Assembly: GCF_018861145.1 (NCBI RefSeq) | Contig: NZ_JAHKQT010000004.1 | Location: 1 to 64,000 of the forward strand | Direction of reading: 5' to 3' | DNA: 64,000 bases | DNA from: Poseidonibacter lekithochrous | GTDB lineage: Bacteria; Campylobacterota; Campylobacteria; Campylobacterales; Arcobacteraceae | In this document: positions 54,054 through 64,000 of the stretch, piece after piece | Layout of the letters: every line of letters begins with the position of its first letter | How positions within the stretch are numbered: the stretch's first letter is position 1 | Translations under genes and position numbers: made by a program | The notes under the pieces: generated by a model | What the model was told of the DNA's origin: nothing | Seen by the model: only the letters and a program-made list of their open reading frames with translations | Databases searched by the model: none

Positions 54054-54533
54054 CTAAACTAACTTTTCTTTTGTAATTACAATTCCATCAGGATCAACAT
54101 AAATATAATCACCTTCAACAATTTCTACATTATCAATAGTAATTGGCACATTTATTTGTCCTTCTTGAACTGGAATATATTTTTTTGGACAAGTTCCTTT
54201 TGCAACTAAACCAACTTTGAAATCTTTTGTTGTAACAGTATCTCTTACATATCCATTTACAATAATTCCTTCATATTTATTATCACTTGCAAATTTCATT
54301 AAGTTATCACCTACAACAGCGTAGTATTTCACATCAACATCAACTACTACTATTTTACCATCACCTTTTTTTTCTTTTAATAATTGCGCTAAATCTTTAT
54401 TGTTTTTATCTAATTTTACTGTAATTGCACTACCTTGAAACTTTACAATTCCACCATATGATTTAAAATCTGGTCCTAAAACTTCTGTCTTATCACTAAA
54501 CTCATCACATAAATCTGCTGTGAAAAATTCCAT
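54054..54533 (-). CDS. RraA-family protein
   Basis: A 159-residue protein matching RraA (about 160) over the full length: TADLCDEF at the start, VVGDNLMKFA, IIVNGYVRDT with the conserved G-x-x-R-D, and DPDGIVI at the end. E. coli RraA binds RNase E; in organisms lacking RNase E, like this group, relatives are often 4-hydroxy-4-methyl-2-oxoglutarate aldolases. The G-x-R-D set needed for aldolase is present, so either role is possible. It precedes ovoA on the same strand. Confidence 0.86.
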   Translation of the reverse strand: MEFFTADLCDEFSDKTEVLGPDFKSYGGIVKFQGSAITVKLDKNNKDLAQLLKEKKGDGKIVVVDVDVKYYAVVGDNLMKFASDNKYEGIIVNGYVRDTVTTKDFKVGLVAKGTCPKKYIPVQEGQINVPITIDNVEIVEGDYIYVDPDGIVITKEKLV

Positions 54534-54650: not shown

Positions 54651-55631
54651 ATGCAAAATATTTATAAATCAATCTTACTTTTACTGTTTTTAGTTTTATT
54701 AACAGGATGTGGTTCAAAACAATTAACTGTAAAATCACTTCATCCATCAAAAATTCCAAATGAAAAAATTTATTCACTTTATATAGAGGATTTTTTTAAT
54801 GATGATATTTATCAAAGTTTAAAAATTCAAAGTAAATTGGCAAATAAAACAATTGAAGGTAAAAAAGTTTTTAGAGTTTTAAATGATTATGGAAATGTTG
54901 ATGCCGTAGTTCAAGGTTCACTTAATTCGACATTAAACTATTCCACTTATTATGAAGAAGAGATTGATTATAGAAGATGTAGATATTATAGATATGAAGG
55001 AAAAAAGAAAACAAAAAGATGCATGAGATACCATGTTCGACTAATTCCATGTGAAAATAGAGAATATACAGTTCAAACTAACCTGAAACTTTTAAAAAAG
55101 AATACAAATGAGATAGTGTTTGCAAAAACATATAATAAAACGCGAAATATTCGAGAATGCTTTAGATATCACTATTATCCTTATCATACGATTCCAAGAG
55201 ATAAAAGAGAAGTAAATATAAAACTTGCATCATTAATAGCTGATGAATTTTTAGACGATATTTCTCCTCATTATGAATATTGGGATATTAATATAATTGA
55301 AGAATTAAATGAAGATAGCTTGGTTTTTACAGATGAACAAAGCAGTAAATTTGAAAAAATTGTAGAACTAATGGAAAAAAGAAATCTAGATTTATCTCTA
55401 GATGGACTAAATAAATTAAGCCAAGAGCTTGATAATAAAAGTTATGAAGTTCTTTATAATATGGCTTTAATTTATGAAGCAAAAGCAAATTTATATGAAG
55501 CAAATAAATTATATAAGCAAGCTAAATACTTTGTAAAAGATTTAGATGATTTATCACTTATAAATAATGGAATAACTAGAACAAAAAAGAATTTAGAAGA
55601 AAAAATAAAAGCAAAATCACAATTGCCTTGA
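54651..55631 (+). CDS. Lipoprotein of unknown function
   Basis: A 326-residue protein with lipobox LLTGC (Cys20). The N-terminal half includes a Tyr/Arg/Cys-rich stretch (about 105-180; YYRYEG, CMRYH, CENREY) with at least five Cys, which may form disulfides; the last ~80 residues are helical, TPR-like (YNMALIYEAKANLYEANKLYKQA). A TATAAT box 30 bp before the ATG suggests its own promoter. Resembles outer-membrane-associated assembly lipoproteins only in general layout. Confidence 0.75.
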   Translation: MQNIYKSILLLLFLVLLTGCGSKQLTVKSLHPSKIPNEKIYSLYIEDFFNDDIYQSLKIQSKLANKTIEGKKVFRVLNDYGNVDAVVQGSLNSTLNYSTYYEEEIDYRRCRYYRYEGKKKTKRCMRYHVRLIPCENREYTVQTNLKLLKKNTNEIVFAKTYNKTRNIRECFRYHYYPYHTIPRDKREVNIKLASLIADEFLDDISPHYEYWDINIIEELNEDSLVFTDEQSSKFEKIVELMEKRNLDLSLDGLNKLSQELDNKSYEVLYNMALIYEAKANLYEANKLYKQAKYFVKDLDDLSLINNGITRTKKNLEEKIKAKSQLP

Positions 55632-55632
55632 T

Positions 55633-56781
55633 TTAACTCTTTTGAAAAGTATAAGTAAACGCACTTCCGATATTTGGTTTTGAATTTACTTCAATTTTTA
55701 TTTTATTTTTTTTACAAATATTTTTTACAATGCTAAGACCAATCCCAAAACCACCTGTTATTTTATCACCTCGATAATATCTTTCAAAAATCTTTTTAGT
55801 ATTTTTTATTCCAATACCTTCATCCCAAAAAGCAAGTTTTATTTCATCTTCATATTTTTCTAAAAGTACTTTTATAGTTGAGCTATCTTTTGAGTATTTT
55901 ATTGCATTTGAAATATTATTATCTATTATTCTAAATAATTCAATTTTATTGAAATTAATCAAAATATTTTTTTTAATACTAGTCTCAATTTTAATATTTT
56001 TTGATATTGCTAAATCACTAAAGAACTCTATTCTTTTTTCTAAAAACATTGAAAAATCAATATTCTCTTTTTCATCTTTAACAGCATGTTGTTGCATATA
56101 ATATTCTAAATCTTCATATATTACAGTCATGTTTTTCAAAGCAGATTTTATTCTCAAAATATACTTATCATTTTTCAATCTTAGTTGTAACATATCTACA
56201 TTTATTCGAGCAACACCAATTGGTGTTTTTAACTCATGCATTGCATCTTTTAAGAATTCATCTAAATATTGATTTAATTTTCTGTATGGTTCTACACTTT
56301 GTTTAATTACAAAAAAAGATGAAAGAAAAATAAAAAAACTAATTGATAAAAGTAAAATAATTGCATTATAAATAACTTGAGAATTATCTATGTCTTTACA
56401 AACAATCAAACTATTTGCATTTAATATATTTAAAGCAAGATACTCTTTATAACAAATTTTATCTTTCGATTTTTCGAAATCATTATTAAAACTTCTTTTT
56501 TCGTTTTTTAAAAGTGAAAAAATCACCCTATTCTCTTTATCAAAGATTCCAGAACTATAAATATTTGATCTTGGAAAATAAAAAACTGTACTATTCTCTT
56601 TCTCAAAATCTTCAATTTTAGAAAATACAGAAGAAGCATAATTTTTTAGATTCATTTTATCTTTTATATTTTGATTTTCAAAAGAAGCATCTAAATAAAA
56701 ATATATGGGAATAAAAGCTATTAATAAAGTAAGAATTACTTGTATTATTATGTATTTTATTTCATATTTATAGTTTATCAA
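55633..56781 (-). CDS. Two-component sensor histidine kinase
   Basis: A 382-residue protein: TM1 (9-30), periplasmic loop (31-136), TM2 (137-160), H-box DAMHELKTPIG with His182, and HATPase_c with NNISNAIKYS, DEGIGI and FGIGLSIV. TTG start inside the 3' end of the response regulator gene (14-bp overlap), so translation is coupled. It pairs with the OmpR-type regulator upstream. Signal unknown; the linked Cache protein and thiosulfate-dehydrogenase-like cytochrome suggest a respiratory or sulfur cue. Confidence 0.9.
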   Translation of the reverse strand: MINYKYEIKYIIIQVILTLLIAFIPIYFYLDASFENQNIKDKMNLKNYASSVFSKIEDFEKENSTVFYFPRSNIYSSGIFDKENRVIFSLLKNEKRSFNNDFEKSKDKICYKEYLALNILNANSLIVCKDIDNSQVIYNAIILLLSISFFIFLSSFFVIKQSVEPYRKLNQYLDEFLKDAMHELKTPIGVARINVDMLQLRLKNDKYILRIKSALKNMTVIYEDLEYYMQQHAVKDEKENIDFSMFLEKRIEFFSDLAISKNIKIETSIKKNILINFNKIELFRIIDNNISNAIKYSKDSSTIKVLLEKYEDEIKLAFWDEGIGIKNTKKIFERYYRGDKITGGFGIGLSIVKNICKKNKIKIEVNSKPNIGSAFTYTFQKS

Positions 56782-57433
56782 TTTTATATCCTACAAATCT
56801 TTTTGTAATTATAAATTCTTTGCTGGTTTTTTCTCTAATTCTTTTTATGCACATTCTAATATCAGAATATGAAATTTCTTTATTTTCCCAAACTTTTTCA
56901 TGTAAAGTTTCAATAGAGACAAAAAAACCTCTATTTTGAACTAAAAAAGAAACTACTTCACTCTCTTTATTACTCAAATCAATATGTTTATCTTTTTTTA
57001 GTAAAAGATTCTTTTTAACATCAAAACTAAAATCTAAAGGGAGTTCTACTTTATCATCTAGAGTTTTAAAACAACTATTTTTAATTAATTGTTCTATTCT
57101 AAACTTTAATTCAATCATATCAAATGGTTTTCTAATATAATCATTACATCCAAGTTCATAACCATGACTAAGATTTGAAATATCAGTTAATGATGTTAAA
57201 ATTATTATAGGAACATTTAATTTTTCTTTTCTTATATTTTCAACTAAAGAAAAGCCATCCATTCCAGGAACTCTAATATCTAAAAGTAATAAATCATAGT
57301 TACATTCAAAAACTGCATCAAAAGCATCATCACCATTTTCAAAATCATCTACAAGAAAATCCAATTCTTCTAAAAACTCTTTTATTGATACTTTATATAA
57401 ATAGTCATCTTCTAATAATAATATTTTCATCAT
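56768..57433 (-). CDS. OmpR/PhoB-family response regulator
   Basis: A 221-residue protein: receiver domain (1-118) with phospho-acceptor Asp52 in LLLLDIRVPG, Thr in ILTSLTD, Lys in YIRKPFD, and a winged-helix DNA-binding domain (about 130-220, SNKESEVVSFLV...VWENKEISYSDIRMCIKRIREK). It is co-translated with the kinase downstream and with the Cache protein upstream (4-bp ATGA-type overlap). Likely target: the divergent/convergent genes of this cluster. Confidence 0.92.
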   Translation of the reverse strand: MMKILLLEDDYLYKVSIKEFLEELDFLVDDFENGDDAFDAVFECNYDLLLLDIRVPGMDGFSLVENIRKEKLNVPIIILTSLTDISNLSHGYELGCNDYIRKPFDMIELKFRIEQLIKNSCFKTLDDKVELPLDFSFDVKKNLLLKKDKHIDLSNKESEVVSFLVQNRGFFVSIETLHEKVWENKEISYSDIRMCIKRIREKTSKEFIITKRFVGYKIDKL

Positions 57434-58365
57434 TTTATTATGATCTCTCTTTTTTGTTTTATATTAGAATTTTTCAAATCTGTTTTTGTATTTATCTCAC
57501 CTAAATATTCATATCTTGGTAAATATTTATAATCTTGTTCATTTTTATCAAAATAAATCATTAACTTACCAATACTTTCTAAATCCATATTCTCTAAAGG
57601 TATCTGTGTTACTATTTTATTTTTAATTTCATAATAGAAAAATTCATTTGAAATATAGTTTTTATTTTCTTGTAAAATATGAAAAAAGTTTTTATCATAT
57701 TCCTCTTTTAAGACAACATAATCATGCAAAAGTTGATTTTTTTTATGATATTGAGCAATTTTTAAGTACTTTTTCTCTAACAAAGGAATTATTTCTATTC
57801 CCATATATTTTAAACGATTTTTTAAATCACTATAATCGATAATTACTTCAATAGAACCTATATACTTTTTATTTCTATCAAAAATAGGTGAAATAGCCTT
57901 GATATTAAATCTTTTTCCTAATTCATTTGAAACAAAAGGTTCTTTAGTCTCTTTAACCTTTACTAGACCTTTTCTAAACTCTTTTAAACTAAGTCCCAAA
58001 TCCTCATCTTCCCAAGATCTTACAAATACTTCTAATTCTTTAGTATGAACTTGCACTTGAATATTGTATATATTTGTATAATTTTTAATATTTGAAAGTA
58101 ATTTTAATAATTCAACTTTTAATTTCTTTTGATCATTTTTTTCTAAAAAATTTACTACATTTTGGTTTTGTGAGAAAAGAATTGATAAAGATAAGGCTTG
58201 ATTTTTTTGATGTAATAATTCATTTTCAACAAGTTTTATTTTATTAGATACTAAGATGTCAGTTTGGTTTTGTTCTATTATATTGTTGTATTTATTTAAA
58301 AAGAAAAGTAGAATCATCATTACAATGATGAAAAGTAATATAAAGTTTCTGTAAGTTTTATTCAT
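57430..58365 (-). CDS. Stand-alone membrane-anchored Cache sensor protein
   Basis: A 311-residue protein with one N-terminal TM helix (about 7-23) and a large extracytoplasmic part. The segment QVQVHTKELEVFVRSWE...DLSLKEFR-type followed by KAISPIFDRNKKYIGSIEVIIDY is characteristic of double-Cache ligand domains. No HAMP, kinase, GGDEF or methyl-accepting domain is attached. The C-terminal ~100 residues are another Cache-like half. It probably binds a ligand in the periplasm and modulates the co-encoded histidine kinase, which has only a small sensor loop of its own. Confidence 0.78.
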   Translation of the reverse strand: MNKTYRNFILLFIIVMMILLFFLNKYNNIIEQNQTDILVSNKIKLVENELLHQKNQALSLSILFSQNQNVVNFLEKNDQKKLKVELLKLLSNIKNYTNIYNIQVQVHTKELEVFVRSWEDEDLGLSLKEFRKGLVKVKETKEPFVSNELGKRFNIKAISPIFDRNKKYIGSIEVIIDYSDLKNRLKYMGIEIIPLLEKKYLKIAQYHKKNQLLHDYVVLKEEYDKNFFHILQENKNYISNEFFYYEIKNKIVTQIPLENMDLESIGKLMIYFDKNEQDYKYLPRYEYLGEINTKTDLKNSNIKQKREIIIK

Positions 58366-58385
58366 GTGTAATTTTATCTAAAAGT

Positions 58386-58415
58386 AAAAGAGAATATCCT
58401 TTGATATTCTCTTTT
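58386..58415 (-). terminator. Terminator between the cytochrome gene and the Cache-regulator-kinase genes
   Basis: A perfect 13-bp stem, aaaagagaatatc / gatattctctttt, loop cttt, 3 bp after the cytochrome stop. The run of T after the minus-strand hairpin is short, so read-through into the sensor genes is possible. Confidence 0.75.
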
Positions 58416-58418
58416 AAA

Positions 58419-59399
58419 TTATTTTATAATTTTTCCATAAGGTCCAACTTGATGTTCTTTTGTTTCAATATTAGGTCTATAAACATCTGGAGCTTTAACT
58501 ATTTCATCAGGAAAATCATTATTTCTATTTATTTTTTCTGGTCTATAATGAGAATCTTGATTCATAAATGCAGCTACATTATAAGCTTCTTCATCAGTTA
58601 AAATTGGATTTTCATGTGTTGCCCCTAATGGCATATTACTTTTTATAAAATCTGCAGATTTTAAAATTCTATACATTCCTGCACCTTTATTATAAGTATC
58701 TTCTGTACCCCATAATGCAGGGAACATGAAGCCATTTGCTTTTCCAGGATTTTTAATTCCTTCTCCATTAGCACCATGACATGAAGCACATTGATTTGCA
58801 TAAACTATACTTCCTTTTTCAAGATCTGCAGCTTGATTTTTAATCATTTTTCTATCAATTTTTGCTAGACCTCTTCCTTTTAGTTTTCCTCCCCCAGCAA
58901 CAGGAATACCCATACTTAACCAGTGCATATAAGCTTGCATTGCAGCCATCTCTTTACTTTGTGCAGGAAGCTTATACCCATTCATACTTCTTTCCATACA
59001 ACCATTAATTCTTTCAACTAAAGTACCAATTTTATTTTCTCTTGGTCTATATTGTGGAAATTCTGCAGTTGTTCCAATAAAAGGTGCAGAATAAGCTTTA
59101 GTTCCTGCATCTAAGTGACAGTTTTGACATTGGTTATTATTTCCTGCAAATCTCATTTTTGGATCATCCACTTCAGGACCTATATATTTAGAAGTATGAA
59201 CAATAAGTTCTCTACCATATTTTACAAGCTCCCCAAATTTATTATCTGGAATATTTTTAACATCAGGAATTATATATTCTAATTTCACATCAGATTTATA
59301 TCCCTTATTTGATCTCTCTTTAAGTTCTTTTCCATCAAAAGACATTAACGAACTTACACATAATGCAGATAAGCTTGCAATTAAAACTACTTTTTTCAT
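58419..59399 (-). CDS. Dihaem cytochrome c, thiosulfate dehydrogenase (TsdA)-like
   Basis: A 326-residue exported protein (signal peptide to about residue 20). The first haem site is CQNCH (91-95), followed by the TsdA-type block FPQYRPRENKIGTLVERINGCMERSMNG; the second is CASCH (204-208) in a class I cytochrome c domain. TsdA enzymes join two thiosulfates to tetrathionate, or run in reverse, in the periplasm. It is directly followed by sensor genes, and a DsbA-like gene is divergent. Lack of a biochemical test leaves the substrate as inference. Confidence 0.85.
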   Translation of the reverse strand: MKKVVLIASLSALCVSSLMSFDGKELKERSNKGYKSDVKLEYIIPDVKNIPDNKFGELVKYGRELIVHTSKYIGPEVDDPKMRFAGNNNQCQNCHLDAGTKAYSAPFIGTTAEFPQYRPRENKIGTLVERINGCMERSMNGYKLPAQSKEMAAMQAYMHWLSMGIPVAGGGKLKGRGLAKIDRKMIKNQAADLEKGSIVYANQCASCHGANGEGIKNPGKANGFMFPALWGTEDTYNKGAGMYRILKSADFIKSNMPLGATHENPILTDEEAYNVAAFMNQDSHYRPEKINRNNDFPDEIVKAPDVYRPNIETKEHQVGPYGKIIK

Positions 59400-59542
59400 A
59401 ATATATCTCCTACTTTTTGATTACTGAAAGTATATAATTTATAGGTAACTTGAAAGTAACAAAGCATAATTAAAAAAATTTAATATTTATTATATTTATA
59501 TATGCTAATATAATTTTAAATATTAAAAAAAGGCAAGAAAAA

Positions 59543-60184
59543 ATGCAAAATAAAAAAGTTGTACTAATATCATTACTAGTTTTACTAGTAGTATTTTTAG
59601 GTGGTACGTATATTTTTAAAACAAATAAGACAGAACAATTAATAGCAAATACAAAAGCAAACTATTCAGCACTAATTAGAGAACACTCAGTAATTATTGG
59701 AAATAAAGATGCAAAAGTTGAACTAGTAGAATTCTTTGACCCAGCTTGTGAAACATGTGCACAAATGCATCCATATGTAAAAGAGATTATGAAAGAAAAG
59801 GAAGGCAATATCAAACTTGTTTTAAGATATGCACCTTTTCATAAGGGTTCTACAAATGCAGTTATATTACTAGAAGCTAGTAAAGAGCAAAATAAATTTA
59901 TTGAAGTTTTAGAGTTACTATTTAATACACAAAATGTATGGGTAATAAATCATAGTGTAGATTTAAATAGATTATGGGCAGTTGTAGCATCATCTAAACT
60001 TCTAGATATGGATAAATTAGTAAAAGATATGAAAGATCCTAAGATTATAGAAATCGTTAAACAAGATATAGAAGATGGAAAAGCTTTAAAAGCTACAAAA
60101 ACACCAGCTTATTATGTAAATGGTAAGCCTTTAGAAGTATTCGGATTAGACAATTTAAAAGATTTAATAAACTCTGCATTATAA
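59543..60184 (+). CDS. DsbA-family periplasmic thioredoxin-fold protein
   Basis: A 213-residue protein with an N-terminal signal anchor (about 5-25), then a DsbA/DsbC-like fold with the active site PACETCAQMH (C69, C72) and cis-Pro loop TKTPAYYVNG near 195. The Cys pair is typical of oxidoreductases like the thioredoxin_4 family. It may supply oxidised or reduced thiols to the neighbouring cytochrome maturation; this is only from position. Divergent from the cytochrome gene across 143 bp. Confidence 0.85.
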   Translation: MQNKKVVLISLLVLLVVFLGGTYIFKTNKTEQLIANTKANYSALIREHSVIIGNKDAKVELVEFFDPACETCAQMHPYVKEIMKEKEGNIKLVLRYAPFHKGSTNAVILLEASKEQNKFIEVLELLFNTQNVWVINHSVDLNRLWAVVASSKLLDMDKLVKDMKDPKIIEIVKQDIEDGKALKATKTPAYYVNGKPLEVFGLDNLKDLINSAL

Positions 60185-60341: not shown

Positions 60342-60752
60342 ATGAAAGTAGTTACAGGAGTTGTAGGTAACGATATACACGTAGTTGCAAATAGACTAAT
60401 AGATATATCATTACAAGCACGAGGATTTGAAGTATTTAACTTAGGTGTTAATACTTATTTAGAAGAATTCTTTGATGCTGTTATTGAAACAAACGCAGAT
60501 GTTTTACTTATCTCTTCACTAAATGGTGAAGCTGAGGGTTGGTGTAGAGAAGTTAAAATTTTAAAATCAAAATATGGAAATCTTTTAGATGAGGTTGTAT
60601 TTATGATTGGTGGTAACTTAGTTGTAGGAACTGGAGCTGCTGAAGATATTGTGCCTAAATTTAAGGATTATGGTTTTGATTTAGTATTTCACCAAGTTGA
60701 CTTAAATACGGGACTTGATGCATTACAAAAATACTTGAAGGAGAGAGAATAA
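60342..60752 (+). CDS. Glutamate mutase S (sigma) subunit, B12-binding
   Basis: A 136-residue protein, the size of GlmS/MutS of glutamate mutase. It has the B12-binding fold with the D-x-H motif GNDIHVV (His lower cobalt ligand), a Ser/Leu loop LLISSLNGEAEGW, and MIGGNLVVGTG. With the E subunit it forms the adenosylcobalamin enzyme that rearranges L-glutamate to (2S,3S)-3-methylaspartate. The next gene overlaps its stop by one base. First gene of an operon that runs past the window end. Confidence 0.93.
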   Translation: MKVVTGVVGNDIHVVANRLIDISLQARGFEVFNLGVNTYLEEFFDAVIETNADVLLISSLNGEAEGWCREVKILKSKYGNLLDEVVFMIGGNLVVGTGAAEDIVPKFKDYGFDLVFHQVDLNTGLDALQKYLKERE

Positions 60753-62119
60753 TGAGCTTACTTCAAGAAGAGCGAGAAATTATTGTTCAAAATAAATATG
60801 CAGATAACTTTGATTTTGCAGAGATAGAAGAGTTTGTAAAAAATGCTTCAAAAGATTTATTTATTTCGCACAACTTTAAAAATGCTAATAAAATGTTAGT
60901 TCAACCTCGTGGTGGTTTTCCAACTTATCAAAAACAATATGATTTATATGAGTTTTTTGTAAATGCAAATGTTGATGTTTTACCTTTAACTATTGATTCA
61001 AATACAAGATTAAATGATTATGCAACATCTGCAAAAATGCTTAAGCTTTCTGAAGAAAATGAAGTTGATATGTTAAATGGTTATCCTTTAGTAAATCATG
61101 GTTATAAAACTACTAGAAAAATGATTACTCACTTTAATAAACCAGTATCATTAAGACATGGAACTCCTGATGCAAGACTTTTAATAGAAACTGCTATTGC
61201 TTCAGGAATCTTTGAAATTGAGGGTGGTCCAATTACTTACCTATTACCCTACTCTAAAAACTTCCCATTAGATAAAGCTTTTTTATATTGGAAATATGTT
61301 GAAAGAGTTTGTGCAAATTATTCAAAACTTAATGAACCAATTAATAGAGAATCCTTTGGTCCTTTAACTGCAACACTTGTTCCTCCTTGTGTAACAATTG
61401 TAATACAGTTATTAGAAATGCTTCTTTCACTTGAAGAAGGTGTAAAATCCTTTTCTGTATCTTTCTCACAAACTGGTTCTATGAATCAAGATATTGTAAC
61501 AGGGGCAGTTATTAGAAAAATGGCTAAGCATTACGCAGAAGAAATCGGATGTGGTGACGCATCTGTACATCTTGTATATCACCAATGGATGGGAGCCTTC
61601 CCAACAGATAAAAATTTTGCAGAATGTTTAATTAATACTTCAACTGTAATTGCAGCTATGGTTGGTGCTGATAAAATTATTACAAAAACAAGAGATGAAG
61701 CATCTGGAATTCCTACAAAAGAATCAAATGCTAAAACAGTTGCAAATACTCAATACACTCTTAGAATGCTTCAAGGTTTACCAAATATTGTAGATAAAGA
61801 AGAGGAAGAAATACTAACTGAAGAAGTTATGAGTATTATGGAAGCTGTGTTTAATGACCCTGCTGATACATTATGGAGAAAAGTATTTAACTCTATTAAA
61901 AATGGAACGATTGATGTTCCCTTCTCTCCACATATTATAAATCATAATGAAGTAGTAACAGTAAGAGATAAAAATAAAAACATTAGAATTATCAAAAAAG
62001 GTAAATTACCAATAAGTGATAGATGTTTTGAATATGAAAAGAAACAATGTGATTTAAATAAAGATGCCTCATCAATAGTAAATGACATCATCCATGATAT
62101 AGGAATTATGCAATGGTAG
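60752..62119 (+). CDS. Glutamate mutase E (epsilon) subunit
   Basis: A 455-residue TIM-barrel catalytic subunit. Family motifs: VQPRGGFPTYQKQYDLYEF, GYPLVNHGYKTTRKM, SLRHGTPDARLL with the Arg that holds the substrate carboxylate, EGGPITYLLPYSKNFPL, and SFSQTGSMNQDIVTGA. It starts one base within the stop of the S subunit and ends 7 bp within the next gene. Slightly shorter than clostridial GlmE (about 480), but all blocks are present. Confidence 0.95.
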   Translation: MSLLQEEREIIVQNKYADNFDFAEIEEFVKNASKDLFISHNFKNANKMLVQPRGGFPTYQKQYDLYEFFVNANVDVLPLTIDSNTRLNDYATSAKMLKLSEENEVDMLNGYPLVNHGYKTTRKMITHFNKPVSLRHGTPDARLLIETAIASGIFEIEGGPITYLLPYSKNFPLDKAFLYWKYVERVCANYSKLNEPINRESFGPLTATLVPPCVTIVIQLLEMLLSLEEGVKSFSVSFSQTGSMNQDIVTGAVIRKMAKHYAEEIGCGDASVHLVYHQWMGAFPTDKNFAECLINTSTVIAAMVGADKIITKTRDEASGIPTKESNAKTVANTQYTLRMLQGLPNIVDKEEEEILTEEVMSIMEAVFNDPADTLWRKVFNSIKNGTIDVPFSPHIINHNEVVTVRDKNKNIRIIKKGKLPISDRCFEYEKKQCDLNKDASSIVNDIIHDIGIMQW

Positions 62120-63297
62120 AAAATAAACTTTTAATCGATATAGGAAGTACATACTTTAAAGTTGCCACTTCTAACAATGTTGAACAACACTTTAGAGATT
62201 TTAACAAAGACATTTATGATGATTTAGTTAGTAAATGTTCAAGTACACTTGAGAGCTTTAAAAAAGAAGAAATATTTATTTGTTCTTCTGCAAATGGTGG
62301 ATTATCAACATTAGTAATTGGTGTTACTAACTCTTTTTCTTTAAAATATGCTACAAATATTGCATATAATTCTGGTATTAATATTATTGATACTGTTTTA
62401 TATCAAGAGATAGATAAAGCTTCAGTTCCAAGTGATTTAATTGATGTTGTAATAATTGTTGGTGGAATTAATAGTGTTGATAATATCTTTAAAGAAGATT
62501 TATTTAAATATTTAGAAAATGTAAATTATTCAAATGTAGTTTTTGCAGGTTCAAGCAAAGATGCTGAGTATTTAAGTTCACATATAGAAAACTTAGTATT
62601 AATTGATAATGTAATTGATAATAAACTCCATGTAGTTGAAGAGCCTTTAAAAGAGTATTTAACTAATCTTTATCAAGCTGATATTATGGGTAAGGAAGAT
62701 ATTAAACATTTATATGATTTAACATCAAATCAAATTTATTCAACTCCTTATATTGTAAATAAAACATTGCCACTAATTGATTCAAAATTTGCAGCTGTTA
62801 ATCCATTTATTTTAATTGATATTGGAGGAGCAACAACGGATATTCATTATTCTAAAGATTTATCTTATGATAATATTGTTACTTCTAATGAATATGATAG
62901 ATTAGTATTTAAGAAACTTGGTGTTTTTAAATCAAAAGAATCATTAATTTTTGCAGCTCAAAATAATGAATTTGTATATGAATTATTAGCTCATTTAAAA
63001 GTAACTGAAAATATTTTTAATGAAGATACTAATAAAAGTCTACGAATTTTAATGCAACTTGCAATCTTCTTAGTTTTATATAAAGTATCAGAAGTTCATC
63101 CTTTATATATCAAACTAAAATTACACTTATTAAAATCTGTTGTATTAACAGGTGGAATTACTAAAGTATTAAGTTTTGAAGAAGTAGAAGATATTATTGC
63201 ATTTTTCTATAAGAAAATTTTAAACAGTGATATTCATCCTGCAATCATTTTAGATTCAAATTATGATATTTGGACTCTTGGAATAACTCAAAAATAA
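62113..63297 (+). CDS. MutL/GlmL-type glutamate mutase accessory protein (ASKHA ATPase)
   Basis: A 394-residue protein of the glmL/MutL family, not the DNA-repair MutL. Two ASKHA phosphate loops are visible: LLIDIGSTYFKV at 5-16 and FILIDIGGATTDIHYS near 235. Family role: reactivation or chaperoning of the B12 mutase. Members are usually about 450-480 residues; this one is shorter, with ending LTGGITKVLSF...TLGITQK. Overlaps the mutase gene by 7 bp, so it is in the same translated unit. Confidence 0.88.
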   Translation: MVENKLLIDIGSTYFKVATSNNVEQHFRDFNKDIYDDLVSKCSSTLESFKKEEIFICSSANGGLSTLVIGVTNSFSLKYATNIAYNSGINIIDTVLYQEIDKASVPSDLIDVVIIVGGINSVDNIFKEDLFKYLENVNYSNVVFAGSSKDAEYLSSHIENLVLIDNVIDNKLHVVEEPLKEYLTNLYQADIMGKEDIKHLYDLTSNQIYSTPYIVNKTLPLIDSKFAAVNPFILIDIGGATTDIHYSKDLSYDNIVTSNEYDRLVFKKLGVFKSKESLIFAAQNNEFVYELLAHLKVTENIFNEDTNKSLRILMQLAIFLVLYKVSEVHPLYIKLKLHLLKSVVLTGGITKVLSFEEVEDIIAFFYKKILNSDIHPAIILDSNYDIWTLGITQK

Positions 63298-63307
63298 AGG
63301 AAATAAT

Positions 63308-64000
63308 ATGTCAATAAATTGTATAAGAACATTAGTAGAAGAAGCAAATATTTCAAATCCAGAAAAAATTGCTTTAACATTTGGACATGAGAAAATTACA
63401 TATAGCGAATTATTTACTAAAGTAAATCAAATTGCTTATTATTTAGATGAGTTAAATATGCCAAGCAAAAGTAGAATTGGTATTTATTCAAATAAAGGAA
63501 TAGATCAAGTTATTGCAATACTTGCTATTTTATCAACTGATTATATTCTAGTTCCTTTAACAAAATTACTTAAACAAGAACAAGTAAAATATATAATTGA
63601 TGATTGTGATATTGCTTGTATTATTACAGATAAAGTAAAACTTGAAACACTTGAAGAAATAAACTTTACAGGTACTGTTATTTCATATGAAACAGCACAT
63701 AAAGAATTACCATCATTTGAAGAGATTTACAAATACTATAATAAACCTTATGAATGTAATATTTCAGGACATCAAAATGCTGCTATTACTTACTCATTTG
63801 GAATAAGTGGAAAACCAAAAGGTATTGTGATTTCACATAGAAACTTTATAGATTCAGCTCGTGTTGTGTCACAATACTTAAAACTAAAAGAAGAAGATGT
63901 AATTTCAGGAACACTTGTTTTTAATCTTGATTATGGATTAAATCAAATCTTTTGTTCTTTATATAAAAGAGCAACATTAGCACTTCACAAATTTGTTTTA
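63308..64000 (+). CDS. AMP-forming acyl/aminoacyl ligase, N-terminal part (truncated by window end)
   Basis: The ATG at 63308 with aaagga 5 bp upstream opens a frame to the window end (231 residues seen). It contains the N-terminal ANL-superfamily pattern: ITYSELFTKVNQIAYYL, IGIYSNKG, the A3 P-loop TYSFGISGKPKGIVISH, with Phe and Ile replacing the usual Ser/Thr-Gly. It follows the mutase chaperone by 10 bp, so it is in the glutamate mutase operon. Adenylation of 3-methylaspartate or of another acid is inferred from position. The specificity-determining pocket lies beyond the window. Confidence 0.85.
   Translation, partial: MSINCIRTLVEEANISNPEKIALTFGHEKITYSELFTKVNQIAYYLDELNMPSKSRIGIYSNKGIDQVIAILAILSTDYILVPLTKLLKQEQVKYIIDDCDIACIITDKVKLETLEEINFTGTVISYETAHKELPSFEEIYKYYNKPYECNISGHQNAAITYSFGISGKPKGIVISHRNFIDSARVVSQYLKLKEEDVISGTLVFNLDYGLNQIFCSLYKRATLALHKFVL

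Follow-up and report, generated by a model that had tools for sequence, protein, structure and literature searches.

In Poseidonibacter lekithochrous (Arcobacteraceae), the window (the whole 64,000-nucleotide stretch of DNA analysed) ends in genes for the S and E subunits of a glutamate mutase, a MutL-like ATPase (L) and an ANL-superfamily ligase. With roughly even confidence, we read these four genes and a gene for an RraA-like protein as a stand-alone primary-metabolic module for 3-methylaspartate and not as an antibiotic cluster. S and E would form a coenzyme-B12-dependent glutamate mutase converting glutamate to a rare amino acid, (2S,3S)-3-methylaspartate, the MutL-like protein would swap out damaged cofactor, and the ANL protein would hold 3-methylaspartate in a VinN-like pocket and act on it without a dedicated carrier protein, by adenylation if its altered ATP site still works. 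The RraA-like protein is probably a metal-dependent decarboxylase or aldolase whose substrate is a keto acid formed in this pathway. What the sequences show is the order of the genes and their conservation, the residues of the active site and the pocket, and the absence of a carrier protein and of a methylaspartase; against this reading, no gene in the module accounts for the fate of 3-methylaspartate. That marine Campylobacterota, Gammaproteobacteria and others share a strongly constrained module of five genes suggests that 3-methylaspartate has a use in metabolism that has gone unrecognised. Two questions follow: how an ANL protein whose ATP site is eroded functions next to a B12 mutase, and from where these cells obtain adenosylcobalamin when no known adenosyltransferase is found. 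We found no description of the module in the literature searched, in which subscription journals were thinly covered.

Table 1. Genes of the putative 3-methylaspartate module in the window
Feature	Position	Strand	Remarks
S subunit, cobamide-binding component of glutamate mutase	60342-60752	+	136 aa; motif DIHVVA
E subunit, glutamate (methylaspartate) mutase	60752-62119	+	455 aa; active-site residues aligned
L, MutL/GlmL-like ATPase, presumed mutase reactivase	62113-63297	+	394 aa; ASKHA motifs kept
ANL-superfamily ligase-like protein, N-terminal part in window	63308-64000	+	VinN-like pocket, altered P-loop
RraA/HMG-aldolase-fold protein	54054-54533	-	G-D-x20-R-D motif; conserved divergent operon partner

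The close packing described in an earlier note on this DNA was confirmed on re-measurement: S, E, L and the ligase gene, all on the forward strand, are joined by overlaps of 1 bp and 7 bp and then a 10-bp gap, and the A3 loop quoted there, TYSFGISGKPKG, matches the sequence. The ligase gene is whole beyond the window (contig 63308-64879, L003:5308-6879; 523 aa). S belongs to the B12-binding/MutS family (PF02310; NF002612, 160 bits, cut-off 110), E to Met_asp_mut_E (PF06368, E-value 1e-116), L to MutL (PF13941, E-value 2e-28), and the ligase to AMP-binding (PF00501). Most curated models fit only in part: E is narrowly under the TIGR01503 equivalog cut-off (375.1 vs. 390.1 bits), the MutL-like protein, which is about 60 residues shorter than GlmL, scores 81 against a cut-off of 475, and the ligase scores 431.6 bits against 592.35 for TIGR03098. 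The mutase, MutL and ligase of the window thus form what is, judged from these scores, a distinct branch.

Eight positions of the clostridial E subunit (R66, R100, R149, E171, Y177, Y181, K326, and E330) are, as we take it from the clostridial structures, substrate or adenosyl contacts, with R66, R100, and R149 forming the substrate-binding Arg claw. All eight are intact in the window E aligned with the clostridial enzyme and structures 6h9e and 1cb7 (R53, R86, R135, E157, Y163, Y167, K312, and E316, respectively), the Arg claw and the equivalents of E171, Y177, and Y181 among them, and all are conserved within the family (80 sequences). The S motif DIHVVA is the canonical DxHxxG with the last G replaced by A, and it is invariant (76/76 loci); the D and H of this base-off cobamide-binding motif are kept, and four control S subunits linked to methylaspartase have G. 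The case from sequence for a glutamate (methylaspartate) mutase, as the earlier note had proposed, is strong. On a Methylobacter plasmid (L118:2862-7221), a divergent E-like protein, 31% identical, is encoded in a run that also holds genes for asparagine synthetase A, a B12-binding protein, and a transporter.

The arrangement resembles the clostridial glmS-mutL-glmE-methylaspartase operon in its S, E, and MutL-type ATPase and in the contact residues that were checked. It differs in having no methylaspartase, in the order S-E-L, in the DxHxxA motif of S, in having the ligase and RraA instead, and in its E and MutL scores, narrowly and far under the cut-offs, respectively.

S, E, L, and the ligase gene follow one another in this order in 70/81 loci, most of the rest being cut by contig ends, so that the arrangement is not due to chance. 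Our scan of GTDB genomes returned 214 related places, the best 80 of the 214 having at least 80% E identity. The cassette is present in 60/104 Arcobacteraceae genomes and common in free-living Campylobacterota, so that the earlier note's "unexpected in Campylobacterota" does not hold. Its hosts are free-living marine bacteria from Campylobacterota, Gammaproteobacteria, and betaproteobacteria, with one Rhodothermales genome. Between phyla, the mutase is 80–85% identical in protein sequence, whereas identity at fourfold-degenerate sites is 0.04–0.33. Synonymous sites are thus saturated, which rules out recent horizontal transfer as the source of the high identity; by this measure, the likeness is a product of old, strong purifying selection. 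In the E tree, the deepest in-family branches are Campylobacterota (families f10 and f4) and Pseudomonadota are nested among them with moderate support, suggesting that the cassette spread out of Campylobacterota. Downstream of the cassette in f10 lie the housekeeping genes yidD-yidC-jag-mnmE (named by eye from the sequences). One Arcobacteraceae genome (G080, locus L132) retains S and RraA, with E, L, and the ligase missing between RraA and a small cytochrome gene; this is a deletion of the cassette core.

RraA is the sole further gene associated with the cassette across phyla (81 loci). It lies divergently beside the cassette, next to S, in 60/81 loci, a link that the earlier note had missed. 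About 5.8 kb of inserted genes part it from S in the window; this interval (54651-60184) encodes a lipoprotein-like protein, a two-component system, a c-type cytochrome, and a DsbA-like protein, unlike most other loci, where RraA directly adjoins S. With co-occurrence tested for chosen families, an RraA homologue was found in 58/60 cassette-positive and 12/44 cassette-negative Arcobacteraceae genomes (2 of the 12 weak), counts that are not independent, the genomes being related to one another; its presence in cassette-negative genomes speaks against our reading. The operon's RraA shares with the RraA/HMG-CHA aldolase family the fold and the motif G-(D/E)-x20-R-D, and its catalytic pair, R97 and D98, is kept in 63/63 sequences. 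In HMG/CHA aldolase, a class II pyruvate aldolase, R123 is catalytic and D124 binds metal (PMC5065237). The position of RraA gives good support to its partnership with the operon; the reaction that it catalyses is our inference.

The pairing of mutase and RraA could also serve a route from glutamate to 2-oxobutyrate ("isoleucine biosynthesis III"), in which an aminotransferase acts after the mutase to give 3-methyloxaloacetate, RraA decarboxylates this product, and the ANL protein has a sensing or chaperone role. A class I aspartate/aromatic aminotransferase lies close to RraA in 32/81 loci, in gammaproteobacteria, and the conserved Arg-Asp pair, the oxaloacetate decarboxylase activity of related aldolases (PMC5065237), and the degenerate ligase motifs are consistent with such a route. 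We nevertheless consider it unlikely: no aminotransferase adjoins the cassette in Campylobacterota, the strictly conserved ligase would be left unexplained, and the route is not needed because threonine dehydratase (TIGR01127, ilvA) is over its cut-off in 100/104 genomes, with or without the cassette.

For the 3-methylaspartate module that we favour, the likely ligand of the ligase, judged from its pocket, is 3-methylaspartate. The window ligase has D208-Y209-G-L and TEA-x-R in common with VinN homologues from Streptomyces (L139 and L140, clusters in which S, E, and PKS genes have the ANL gene and a type III PLP enzyme as neighbours), the loop being of equal length with no gap, and its pocket Arg (R312) matches theirs. 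In VinN, the amine is bound by the equivalent Asp, and the pocket takes its shape from an aromatic residue, F231, and from a shortened loop that carries K330/R331 (PMC11253843). The ligase orthologs show no variation in the VinN-like aromatic residue, the Arg, or the Asp of amino-acid adenylation domains. The pocket was read from the alignment instead of the AlphaFold model (mean pLDDT = 68.7), which is unreliable over residues 305-420 (the pocket loops). A ligase that acts on an unrelated acid, such as a fatty acid or acetate, and is merely co-transcribed would fit the observation that acyl-CoA ligases also match the fold; this is quite improbable, however, as amino-acid adenylation domains are its best matches among solved structures, the three pocket residues do not vary, and synteny with the mutase is nearly unbroken.

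The catalytic motifs depart from those of VinN-type enzymes, which combine such a pocket (Asp, aromatic residue, and short loop with Arg) with a Ser/Thr P-loop and the A10 Lys. The ligase P-loop is TYSFG, compared with the normal xYTSG, and is unchanged in 84/85 orthologs, so it is not a sequence error; the P-loop Ser/Thr is replaced in every ortholog examined (n = 85). At the A10 Lys position the orthologs have K, Q, R, or other residues, and eight have no Lys in residues 504-512, where the window ligase keeps Lys at 508 and 510. Since the A10 Lys is not conserved and the P-loop Ser/Thr is replaced, adenylation may not occur: it is plausible for the window ligase and doubtful for the ligase family.

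Among named ligases, the closest family is the exosortase-A-associated one (TIGR03098, ligase_PEP_1), with which the window ligase has the segment GLTEAFRSTYLDP in common. The exosortase enzymes, unlike the window ligase, have Ala in place of Tyr209 and a normal P-loop and A10, and their neighbours include a carrier protein and a PLP decarboxylase; the window ligase is below the family cut-off (431 vs. 592 bits). Two polysaccharide clusters (L133:6871-11792 and L134:8923-12052) hold an exosortase-A-type ligase, a PLP decarboxylase, and an acyl carrier protein together; by analogy with VinN/VinO/VinL, which this trio resembles, the ligase there may activate an acidic amino acid.

The earlier note had paired the operon with vicenistatin-type clusters, the ligase loading 3-methylaspartate onto a carrier for a PKS or NRPS. 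The likeness to VinH/VinI/VinN holds for the mutase beside an ANL enzyme and for the DYGL and TEA-x-R pocket; it fails at the P-loop, the A10 Lys, and the carrier partner, and the E subunits are only about 28% identical. The genes past 64000 include none of the partners sought there (carrier protein, condensing enzyme, PLP decarboxylase, and dedicated transporter): downstream of the ligase lie a cytochrome-like protein of 91 aa, a GGDEF protein, and genes that are unrelated or housekeeping. Around the 81 loci, there is no recurrent carrier, megasynthase, or VinO-like decarboxylase, and PKS genes and a PLP decarboxylase are likewise absent from the window module. In at least 14 near-complete genomes that carry the cassette, PP-binding (PF00550) is matched only once, and the complete single-contig carriers (G036, G068, G079, and G084) have one PP-binding protein each, presumably the fatty-acid carrier. 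NRPS-size ORFs with PP-binding domains do occur in a few carriers (G032, G033, G094, and G096). Those with several such domains are NRPS/PKS-like and lie away from the operon (G032:C1:2183006-2204421, G033:C7:33512-54927, and G094:C1:129513-134180). Because the bare cassette, standing alone without biosynthetic partners and in genomes with one carrier, has been conserved whole in different phyla, it does not appear to be a specialised-metabolite cluster, and we give the vicenistatin-like supply little credence.

The finding that would have favoured a catabolic role, a methylaspartase, did not appear either: PF07476 is over its cut-off in 0/104 Arcobacteraceae genomes, the window genome included. 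Glutamate fermentation or the methylaspartate cycle would account for the mutase genes, and methylaspartase-linked mutase operons do exist elsewhere (L117 and L135-L137), but in Arcobacteraceae both are refuted by this count unless a non-homologous ammonia-lyase exists, which leaves them next to no probability. Together, the single PP-binding matches and the lack of methylaspartase disfavour an antibiotic role as well as a fermentative one.

The source of adenosylcobalamin for the proposed module is unexplained, a further point against it. Nearly every Arcobacteraceae genome encodes B12-binding proteins of MetH size, which indicates that the family uses cobalamin; MetH has been reported in A. 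butzleri (PMC2147049). The adenosyltransferase families PF02572 and PF01923 had no match in the 104 Arcobacteraceae genomes (the positive controls, E. coli and others, matched). Among other cassette-bearing Campylobacterota, PF02572 was found in 1/14 and PF01923 in 0/23, and PF02572 was found in 14/14 of the cassette genomes tested outside Campylobacterota, which are gammaproteobacterial. No cobalamin riboswitch was found near the operon (eight loci). The simple explanation is that adenosylcobalamin is imported, and the novel one an unrecognised enzyme. Since an adenosylcobalamin-type mutase is carried without a known adenosyltransferase, the ANL protein with its altered ATP site, or the short MutL, might supply or regenerate the adenosyl cofactor, or the mutase might use another cofactor state; we see only a slim chance of this. 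Either protein, as such a supplier, would represent a new cobalamin adenosyltransferase class. The classical glutamate mutase/methylaspartase operon of Peptoclostridium is followed by a gene for a cobalamin adenosyltransferase (L136:7623-8138).
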